Shown here in pieces: positions 12,047 to 15,832 of a stretch of DNA of 64,000 bases. Source of the stretch: Elusimicrobium sp. (lineage in GTDB: Bacteria; Elusimicrobiota; Elusimicrobia; Elusimicrobiales; Elusimicrobiaceae); contig SUVG01000001.1 in assembly GCA_015062115.1 (NCBI GenBank), forward strand, positions 1 through 64,000, given 5' to 3'. The notes under the pieces were generated by a model, which searched no databases, had not been told where the DNA came from, and worked only from the letters and a program-made list of their open reading frames with translations. The translations under genes and the position numbers were made by a program. Each line of letters begins with the position of its first letter. Position 1 is the stretch's first letter.

Positions 12047-12080
12047 AGGATAGCACACTTACGCGACAACCTATGGTCGC
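12047..12080 (-). promoter_or_regulatory. WYL/PafBC-type promoter, copy 1, facing rtcB-wyl
   Basis: Read on the minus strand: GCGACCATAGGTTGTCGC (12080-12063), 10 bases, then TATCCT (12052-12047). The TTGTCG half is 11 bases from the TANNNT box, as in PafBC promoters. The start point would be near 12040, at the beginning of the structured leader. Confidence 0.65.
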
Positions 12081-12107: not shown

Positions 12108-12146
12108 ACGACCTACTGTTGTCGCAACGATTTGCTAGGCTATAAT
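12108..12146 (+). promoter_or_regulatory. WYL/PafBC-type promoter, copy 2, facing the 204-aa ORF
   Basis: ACGACCTACTGTTGTCGC (12108-12125) differs from copy 3 only in its first base. Ten bases later stands TAGGCT (12136-12141), keeping the TTGTCG-N11-TANNNT spacing; TATAAT at 12141-12146 is 16 bases from TTGTCG and is an alternative -10. It is back to back with copy 1. Confidence 0.6.
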
Positions 12147-12168: not shown

Positions 12169-12783
12169 ATGAGAGAACTGACAATTATAAGCAATGGTTT
12201 CGTAGGGGCCAATATCAGTAACCACAAAAATTATAAAAAAAGGATATTAAAAAATATACCCAAAAAAATATCCCAATTTACAATTTCCCCCTGCCACTTT
12301 ACCGACAGTATTATACTCAACTTGCATGCGGACAAAAAAATCTGTGGATTTGAAGTAATGCTATCAGAAAATCAAACCAATGACACACTGTTTTGGTTGG
12401 AAAGCATTTGCTTAAATTGCAAAGAATCTATTTTACTTATAGACCCGGAAGGCCCCAACCAAATGCTGCGTTTTTATTCTCAATGGGAAACAGATAACGA
12501 GGGGCGTTTTAGTATGCTCACGACATACGAGTATTACTATGATAAAGAAAAAAACAAATGGATAGATAACCCCAAAACCTATGAAACTTATAAAAAAACA
12601 GGAGAAACTCCCATTGTGTGCGATATTTTAATTTCCAAAAAAGAATTGGTAAGCCAATTCTATCAAGCCATATTGTCGGGTTTGGAAAGGGCAGAAAAAG
12701 AGGGCAGTATGGATAACACGATAGTAAGGCGTTCTAAAATCATAGAAGATTTTTTATTGCGACCTACTGTTGTCGCGTACTAA
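12169..12783 (+). CDS. Unknown protein of the RNA-repair island
   Basis: 204 aa, no family recognised. It begins MRELTIISNGFVGANISNHK, is lysine-rich early on, has strands alternating with aromatic stretches (FWLESICLNCKESILLID; RFYSQWETDNEGRFSMLTTYEYYYD), and ends in a helical part. No membrane segment or signal peptide. ATG 12169 has AAGAG 8 bases upstream; a TTG at 12154 would add five residues. The last 25 bases overlap promoter copy 3, which encodes the tail RPTVVAY. It is the first plus-strand gene of the island and is controlled by copy 2, so a part in RNA repair, sensing or protection is plausible but not shown. Confidence 0.7.
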   Translation: MRELTIISNGFVGANISNHKNYKKRILKNIPKKISQFTISPCHFTDSIILNLHADKKICGFEVMLSENQTNDTLFWLESICLNCKESILLIDPEGPNQMLRFYSQWETDNEGRFSMLTTYEYYYDKEKNKWIDNPKTYETYKKTGETPIVCDILISKKELVSQFYQAILSGLERAEKEGSMDNTIVRRSKIIEDFLLRPTVVAY

Positions 12784-12792
12784 TGTTATGAT
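12759..12792 (+). promoter_or_regulatory. WYL/PafBC-type promoter, copy 3, facing the structured RNA
   Basis: GCGACCTACTGTTGTCGC (12759-12776), 10 bases, TATGAT (12787-12792); transcription should begin about 12799-12801, exactly where the first RNA stem starts. No sigma70 -35 box stands 17 bases before the -10. It overlaps the 3' end of the 204-aa gene. Confidence 0.65.
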
Positions 12793-12799
12793 AGATATA

Positions 12800-13111
12800 T
12801 GAGTAGCAAAGCGTGGAGATAAAACCTACAGTACGAAACGCTTTCTACCCAAAAGGTAAAAAACCTGCGATGCCGGTCTGTACAGCCGGCTCCGGTTTAG
12901 TAAAGGCGAGCTAGACTTGCCGACAGACACGGCTTGGATAAGCGTGTGAGGCATTTTTAGTTCACCTTTAACCTAAGGGGTGTTAGGTATTGGCAGTTCT
13001 GCCTGACGGCATATCGGGTACTTGCCCGAACCCGAGCCATGGGGAACAGCACTCCTATAAGTGCTCGGGTTTGGCCCAAAGGCAGGCTGAGTTACTACTT
13101 AACACCCCTTT
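12800..13111 (+). ncRNA. Highly structured RNA of unknown family in the RNA-repair island
   Basis: About 310 nt without a credible reading frame, starting just after promoter copy 3. Stems: GTAG-c-AAAGCGT (12803-12814)/ACGCTTT-CTAC (12838-12848); AAACC (12861-12865)/GGTTT (12894-12898) holding GCCGG/CCGGC (12872-12876/12886-12890); GGCGAG/CTTGCC (12905-12910/12916-12921); ACAC-g-GCTT/AAGC-GTGT (12927-12935/12940-12947); and an 11-bp closing stem AAGGGGTGTTA/TAACACCCCTT (12975-12985/13100-13110) around GCCTG/CAGGC, TCGGG/CCCGA (13014-13018/13025-13029) and the 9-bp AACCCGAGC/GCTCGGGTT (13029-13037/13063-13071). It ends 27 bases before the kinase ATG. It may be a free RNA or the operon leader. 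Confidence 0.65.
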
Positions 13112-13137: not shown

Positions 13138-13599
13138 ATGTTTAGCAAGAGCCGCAAAACCCTTTTTATCTTAATGGGCATACAGGCAAGCGGAAAAAGC
13201 ACCTTTGCGCACACGGTTTTGACAAATTGTGTTTACATTAGTTTAGATCAACTAAACACACGCAACAAAGAACGAATTGCCTTGCAAAATACCCTTCAAA
13301 CGGGGCGCAACTGCGTAATAGACAACACCAACCCTACACAAAAGGAACGCCAAAAATATATAGATTTGGCCCAAAAAAGCGGATATAAAACTGTAGGCAT
13401 ATACTTCCGCTCCGCAGTGGCCGAGTGCAGTGTCCGCAATGATAAACGCCTTGGCAAAGCCCATGTGCCGCTGAAGGGCTTATTAGCCACCGCCAAGCGC
13501 CTTGAACAACCGACATCAACAGAAGGTTTTGATGCGTTGTATTATGTAAAAATTGAAAACAATGAATTTATAATCAGTAACTGGGACGAAACTTTATGA
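13138..13599 (+). CDS. Polynucleotide 5'-kinase, T4 Pnkp-type kinase domain
   Basis: 153 aa, one P-loop domain. Walker A is GIQASGKST (residues 14-22). CVIDNTNPT is the strand/lid region like SDTNLNP in T4 Pnkp, and VRNDKR..KAHVP matches the RNSKRGTKAVP lid of T4 Pnkp. It should phosphorylate 5'-OH RNA (or DNA) ends with ATP. The start at 13138 (MFSKSRKTLF) is chosen because the earlier in-frame ATG at 13039 lies in the loop of the structured RNA and would add 33 residues encoded by stem sequence. It overlaps the next gene by 4 bases (ATGA). The partner phosphatase domain is a separate gene at 15843. Confidence 0.85.
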   Translation: MFSKSRKTLFILMGIQASGKSTFAHTVLTNCVYISLDQLNTRNKERIALQNTLQTGRNCVIDNTNPTQKERQKYIDLAQKSGYKTVGIYFRSAVAECSVRNDKRLGKAHVPLKGLLATAKRLEQPTSTEGFDALYYVKIENNEFIISNWDETL

Positions 13600-15163: not shown

Positions 15164-15832
15164 ATGACACATTATAATATTCTTTTATGGAAACAAGAGT
15201 CTACCCGTCTTTCTACGGAGAAACAAATAAAAGACTTTTTTTCAAAACTAAATATTATTGGGAAAAAGATAAAAAGCATTAAAATTTTAGGACGGGACTA
15301 TGACCATGACAGAGAAGGAGTAGAGGAATTAGCTTTTCTTCAATTAGAGAAAGTTCTTTCGGAAAAACAAGCCAAAGAAAAAGCCGAATTCTCAAACATT
15401 CCAAAAGATCTTATGTTCTATCGTATAGCGGAAGTGGATGAGCCTATTGTAATAGAACTAAATGACGGAAGACGGTTGGAAATTTTGATTTTGGAACTAG
15501 ACAACACCGTTTACGCAGATGTAAATAAAATATCCCCGGATGCCACTTGGGATATCAATTCTGCCAATGTGAACGGAAATGTGATTTTTTCCCCTTGTAC
15601 AGGCAAAACTATTAAAGCGGTGGAGTTTCCAGTGCACAAGCACTCTTTCGGACAGGAAGAAGAATATCAACAAATACCTGATGTACTCATCAGATTAGAG
15701 GACGGAACGGGACTAAAAATAGAGGGTTGGTTGGATTTCTGTGATATTGAATGTGTTGACAGCAAAAACCAACCTCTTAAAATTTCCTTTAAAGATCTTA
15801 AAAAAGGACTTCACAATAAAGAAGATGAATAA
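15164..15832 (+). CDS. Unknown protein of the RNA-repair operon
   Basis: 222 aa, not recognised. The N-terminal third is helical and charged (KQIKDFFSKLNIIGKKIKSIKILGRDYDHDREGVEELAF). The remainder looks beta-rich, with two copies of the pattern I-x-L-x-D-G-x-x-L-x-I: IVIELNDGRRLEILILEL and VLIRLEDGTGLKIEGWLD. It has no signal peptide or membrane helix. It begins 1 base after the RlaP stop and is followed at once by the HAD phosphatase, so it is translated as part of the repair operon. It may be a binding or regulatory subunit; no catalytic motif is evident. Confidence 0.7.
   Translation: MTHYNILLWKQESTRLSTEKQIKDFFSKLNIIGKKIKSIKILGRDYDHDREGVEELAFLQLEKVLSEKQAKEKAEFSNIPKDLMFYRIAEVDEPIVIELNDGRRLEILILELDNTVYADVNKISPDATWDINSANVNGNVIFSPCTGKTIKAVEFPVHKHSFGQEEEYQQIPDVLIRLEDGTGLKIEGWLDFCDIECVDSKNQPLKISFKDLKKGLHNKEDE

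Follow-up and report, generated by a model that had tools for sequence, protein, structure and literature searches.

A structured RNA with two conserved hairpin modules beside RNA-repair genes in Elusimicrobiaceae

To our knowledge, bacterial RNA repair has been linked to non-coding RNAs chiefly through the Y RNAs associated with Ro60. The bacterial Y RNAs YrlA and YrlB belong to the rsr-yrlBA-rtcBA RNA-repair operons (PMC7790460). The phylum Elusimicrobiota has so far seen very little RNA biology. The locus described here, from a member of that phylum, contains a genuine structured RNA that stands next to RNA-repair genes and belongs to no Rfam family.

The locus and the fold of the RNA

The window, a stretch of 64,000 nucleotides, comes from the 1.44 Mb genome of a gut bacterium of the family Elusimicrobiaceae (G000). 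The neighbourhood of the RNA is an RNA-repair cluster. The minus strand carries genes for a WYL regulator and RtcB, and the plus strand encodes a polynucleotide-kinase-type kinase, a Thg1-like protein, RlaP, a protein without assignment and a PNKP-type phosphatase. The RNA lies at the head of the kinase-Thg1-RlaP operon, where an earlier note on this DNA had placed it. Its other carriers are G043 (buffalo-gut assembly RGIG7511, JAFYXM010000003.1), G001 (Candidatus Avelusimicrobium excrementipullorum, DWVB01000057.1) and G115 (buffalo-gut assembly RGIG8113, JAFZUQ010000006.1). All four carriers are nearly complete metagenome assemblies; three are of one genus, and G115 is of another. The features of the locus are as follows.

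12759–12776, plus strand: operator-like palindrome GCGACCTACTGTTGTCGC (CGAC-N8-GTCG), with 3 matches in the window against 0.11 expected
12787–12792, plus strand: -10-like TATGAT with TG in front, read from the sequence; the consensus promoter scan did not pick this element
12800–12852, plus strand: 5′ hairpin (12803–12814 with 12838–12848), from the fold; 92% identical in G043
12853–12903, plus strand: variable segment, which cannot be aligned well with G043
12908–12963, plus strand: module H1 (helix extends to 12902–12973), from four sequences with covariation; z -5.1
12975–13110, plus strand: outer helix 12975–12989/13096–13110 (15 bp), which encloses H2, from the fold; one-sided compatible changes in G043
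13014–13029, plus strand: small hairpin UCGGGU/GCCCGA inside the outer helix, from the fold; a U-G to C-G change in G043
13027–13073, plus strand: module H2, from four sequences with covariation; 72.4 bits with the R2 covariance model
13138–13599, plus strand: polynucleotide-kinase-like gene, the first after the RNA (AAA_33 and PNKP kinase models)

Further copies of CGAC-N8-GTCG occur at 12063–12080 and 12108–12125, and all three stand at promoters. These palindromes are predicted operators, to which the WYL regulator probably binds. Similar palindromes are found at equivalent places in G001, G043, G025 and G051. The operator and promoter upstream of the RNA are 100% identical between the window and G043, and the position of TATGAT suggests that the RNA would start near 12799. 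The AUG of the kinase gene, placed by alignment with MFTKYTKTLFILIG of G051, is 27 nt beyond the last RNA helix.

Some protein genes of these clusters deserve mention. Two cluster proteins of the window, encoded at 12169–12783 and 15164–15832, have no match in Pfam, PADLOC, NCBIfam or PHROGs; G001 and G025 encode proteins closely related to the second. The WYL regulator and the kinase are separate genes in the window, whereas in G043 (L015:8102-9073) a single protein of the repair cluster combines a WYL domain (residues 85–152) with the AAA_33 kinase (residues 179–277).

The stretch 12800–13111 has a fold energy of -131 kcal/mol (z -7.1), and 0 of 100 shuffled sequences folded as low. When the whole window was scanned in 426 tiled stretches of 312 nt on both strands, the mean z was -0.8 (sd 1.4); the RNA was the most extreme stretch at -7.4, and the lowest value elsewhere was about -4.8. 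This bears out the reading of a highly structured RNA in the earlier note. By domain, z is -5.1 for H1 (12902–12973) and -6.3 for the outer helix with H2 (12974–13111), and only -2.2 for the 5′ hairpin with the variable part. The rtcB leader, on the opposite side, has no significant structure (z -0.8).

The helices that the note had described are also present, namely the first hairpin (GUAG.AAAGCGU/ACGCUUU.CUAC), the 9-bp helix 13029–13037/13063–13071 (AACCCGAGC/GCUCGGGUU), and the 11-bp helix 12975–12985/13100–13110, which turns out to be part of the 15-bp outer helix. The absence of a recognised family holds as well: an Rfam search gave nothing at the gathering score and a best E of 0.28 at a permissive threshold, and ARAGORN found no tRNA or tmRNA in 12800–13111. 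No U-run was found after the last helix in the window, and the 3′ end is less clear than the 5′ end. Cofolding of H1 with H2 gave no gain.

Conservation and spread of H1 and H2

A DNA search with the window RNA found G043, with 79% identity over nearly the full length, and short pieces in G001. By block, the window and G043 are 92% identical in the 5′ hairpin, 94% in H1, 100% in the outer strand and 97% in the H2 core, compared with only 45–68% at the four-fold degenerate codon sites of the neighbouring genes. Strong selection therefore acts on the conserved blocks. Nucleotides 12853–12903 are almost wholly different between the two genomes, with flanks more than 90% identical, and each version can form a hairpin of its own.

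Four gap-free sequences can be aligned for each module. In H1, 92% of the cells of 22 pairs are paired and 7 pairs have changed on both sides; with the partner strand slid by 1–3 columns, 28–46% are paired. In H2, the corresponding numbers are 93% for 15 pairs, 5 pairs changed on both sides, and 22–57% in the slid control. Compensatory changes in homologues, which the earlier note had named as a check, are thus seen in both modules. When the predicted structure is taken in full, the window and G043 differ by two double and at least six one-sided changes that keep pairs outside the variable segment; five pairs are broken outside that segment, and the other eleven broken pairs touch it. The counts for H1 and H2, drawn from four sequences and partly from two lineages, argue strongly that the structure exists and weakly for its details.

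The changes fall almost entirely in the basal stems, and the tips of both modules are nearly invariant. The invariant tip of H1 reads CCRACAGRCACGGCUUGnnnAwGCGUGUGAGG (12920–12951), and the near-invariant core of H2 reads GAGCCAUGGGSAAYARCASYCCUAUAAGYRCUC (13034–13066). Each tip comprises a conserved loop and a conserved asymmetric internal loop. The H2 tip can fold in two ways, as GGGS/SYCC or as AUGGG/CCUAU. The second is the computed optimum in the window; the first is favoured because one pair of the apical stem has changed with compensation from G-C to C-G.

A small peptide, MGN(N/S)(S/T)PIS(A/T)R, can be read from the AUG in the H2 tip. This candidate was rejected, as the frame ends differ and the conservation extends beyond the frame; the paired changes also account for the substitutions.

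H1 and H2 occur in an identical set of 4 of the 341 Elusimicrobiota genomes, in single copy per genome. The H2 covariance model R2 gave only four clear matches in these genomes, at 68–72 bits, the next being at 25 bits, and a pattern search with the H1 tip returned exactly the H2 carriers. A search of about 85,000 genomes with the pattern GCCATGNNNAANANCANNNCTATAAG found the three other carriers, the remaining matches being without stems. A wider family was considered and rejected, since the model matches at or below 25 bits are palindromes or chance; two of them, in G172, sit in protein-coding genes. Phages, plasmids and viral contigs contain no match to the modules.

The patchy spread over so few genomes and the differing positions would suit an element acting at the DNA level. 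A mobile element or recombinase would then recognise the hairpins as single-stranded DNA, and the promoters would be incidental. That explanation is very improbable. Many of the compensated states of H1 and H2 involve G-U pairs, as expected of RNA, a promoter and a U-run frame the hairpin exactly in G115, and the one copy per genome and the lack of a phage, plasmid or viral match speak against it too.

Arrangements of the modules and candidate partners

The modules are arranged differently among the carriers. In the window and G043, H1 and H2 are within one long transcript behind a WYL-type operator and upstream of RNA-repair genes; the RNA stands before the kinase in the window and before RlaP in G043. 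In G001, H1 is directly followed by H2 beside the RNA-repair cluster, past the phosphatase gene and on the opposite strand. This tandem has its own sigma-70-like promoter (TTGATA-17-TATACT), with a hairpin and U-run further on. In G115, H1 and H2 are separate genes on two contigs (C6 and C7). The H2 gene of about 64 nt, found on JAFZUQ010000006.1 by the H2-tip pattern search, consists of TTGACA-17-TATACT, a stem and UUUUUUU; the H1 gene, which is flanked by parB and a peptidase gene and measures about 60 nt, likewise has TTGACA-17-TATACT, a stem and a U-run. The strict promoter form TTGACA/TTGATA-17-TATACT occurs only at these three loci in the DNA examined. No same-strand gene lies nearby downstream of the RNA in either G001 or G115. 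Genes for an EcoRI-type methyltransferase and for a DUF2971 protein (L029:188-2260), matching a PADLOC defence candidate weakly, lie 2–4 kb from the H2 gene of G115.

The arrangement in the window raises the possibility of a cis-acting leader, that is, a 5′ UTR of the repair operon that acts by attenuation, by processing or by feedback binding of repair enzymes. The RNA follows the operator-linked promoter, its last helix lies 27 nt ahead of the kinase AUG, it precedes RlaP in G043 in the same manner, and the outer helix in G043 is followed by UUUUUAUUUU, giving a terminator-like look. The role of operon leader suggested by the earlier note therefore agrees with the position in these two genomes, but not with G001 and G115, where the RNA has its own promoter and no gene of its strand downstream. 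Moreover, the first downstream gene is not the same in the window and G043, and the operon in G025 has a leader of only about 50 nt. We consider this explanation unlikely, and a pure leader function would not account for the G001 and G115 arrangements.

The note had also proposed a guide or substrate of the Thg1-like polymerase and a sensor RNA of the WYL protein. In a search covering genomes other than G115, a Thg1 relative is found in G000, G043, G051, G030 and G076; the RNA is found in G000, G043, G001 and G115. G051, G030 and G076 thus have the Thg1 relative without the RNA, and G001 has the RNA without Thg1, which speaks against the first proposal. A dedicated WYL sensor is unlikely, since the orthologous WYL-RtcB locus lacks the RNA in G025, G051 and G126, and G115 carries the RNA with only a 41%-identical WYL paralogue. 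RlaP is clear in only 5 of the 90 family genomes, and three of the five carry the RNA in the same cluster. This local link to RNA repair is notable, though three related genomes are few. The link is broken in G115, which has the RNA without RlaP and with only that distant WYL paralogue, and several RNA-repair loci are without the RNA. Thg1, RlaP and this WYL regulator are therefore not necessary, because each occurs without the RNA and because of the gene content of G115.

TROVE (PF05731) is absent from all of G000, G043, G001 and G115, and no Y-RNA family model or tRNA-like module was found in the RNA (Rfam 15; ARAGORN). The note had also suggested a Y-RNA-like partner; a Y RNA in the strict sense finds no support here. 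An Hfq-dependent small RNA was rejected as well: PF17209 is absent from the four carriers and was found in 5 control genomes. As far as nearly complete assemblies allow, these gene-content searches exclude Ro60 and Hfq as partners.

G001 encodes a DUF2828-DUF7788 protein (L016:5914-7485) that is distantly Ro60-like, with a weak vWA_Ro60 match below the cut-off. Its gene belongs to the same cluster, follows a WYL-type operator and is absent from the other carriers tested.

Another reading is that of small regulatory RNAs whose conserved loops (AAYARCA and GGCUUG) base-pair with target mRNAs. The short G115 genes with strong promoters and U-run ends have this form, and the loops are invariant. 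However, the internal loops and the flanks on both sides vary as little as these loops do, and Hfq is lacking in the four carriers, although pairing independent of Hfq exists. We regard this reading as quite improbable.

Type II CRISPR loci lie close to some of these clusters. In G043 (L057) and G051 (L022), the WYL-RtcB genes have such a locus, with a Cas9 of about 1200 aa, as their direct neighbour. A tracrRNA or another CRISPR RNA comes into question for this reason, and also because the G001 copy adjoins a CRISPR array and its 5′ end partly matches the repeat. But the repeat-like stretch of G001 makes up one side of the H1 stem, which covaries, and its contig has better anti-repeat matches elsewhere. 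The window genome and G115 have no Cas9 match, and G051, which has a clear anti-repeat between array and cas2, is without H1 and H2. The CRISPR explanation is largely refuted, and we give it almost no weight.

A proposed role and its comparison with known systems

The explanation we favour, with moderate confidence, is a trans-acting non-coding RNA built of two partner hairpins, H1 and H2, which has been recruited into an RNA-repair regulon here. The G115 and G001 loci have their own promoter and terminator, no open reading frame and a covarying structure. Modules that work together are the simplest account of the four arrangements, which are split, tandem, and twice within a WYL-operator transcript. 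Against a trans-acting RNA stand the small number of carriers, four with three of them congeneric, and the lack of a U-run terminator in the window, where transcription could simply continue into the operon.

A tip that stays invariant on a stem that can be exchanged is typical of a recognition element. Acting in trans, the RNA would present its tips as recognition sites for a protein or, less likely, for a shared RNA target. Protein binding appears most likely because the asymmetric internal loops are conserved on both strands, with target base-pairing second. The basal stems would hold the tips up, and in G115 they may also end transcription. Control by the WYL operator would couple production of the window RNA to that of the repair enzymes.

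What the RNA does there can be suggested only tentatively. Behind a WYL operator, as the first element of the kinase-Thg1-RlaP-phosphatase operon, the pair may serve as a scaffold or decoy while RNA is being cut, and such a part could, equally tentatively, be compared with that of the Y RNAs of rtcBA operons, in role and not in descent. It is rather doubtful, if conceivable, that H1 and H2 are obligatory halves of a ribonucleoprotein, separate or fused, that in Avelusimicrobium was drawn into a WYL-controlled repair or defence response. The split state in G115 defines two minimal RNAs of about 60 nt and the exact conserved tips, allowing direct fishing for the partner.

Several known systems share some of these properties. 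Type II tracrRNAs resemble the G001 copy, which is close to a CRISPR array; unlike them, the RNA has no anti-repeat, and Cas9 is absent from two of the four carriers. Structured operon leaders, such as attenuators and protein-binding leaders, have the same position as the RNA in the window and G043, but in two of the four genomes the RNA is not upstream of a gene, and no known leader family matches. The G115 genes are similar to autonomous bacterial small RNAs with terminator hairpins, being likewise 60–70 nt long with a sigma-70-like promoter, a stem and a U-run. They differ in that H1 and H2 are two different, co-occurring hairpins, fused in other genomes, and in that the carriers lack Hfq.

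The likeness to YrlA and YrlB lies in a structured non-coding RNA inside an RtcB RNA-repair cluster with a stress-type regulator (PMC7790460). The carriers of H1 and H2, in contrast, have no Ro60/TROVE, and the RNA has neither a tRNA-like domain nor an Rfam match. On this reading, the RNA would be unrelated to the Ro60-associated Y RNAs and yet stand in an RNA-repair setting, and its H1 and H2, in contrast to YrlA and YrlB, can be two separate genes away from any repair cluster.
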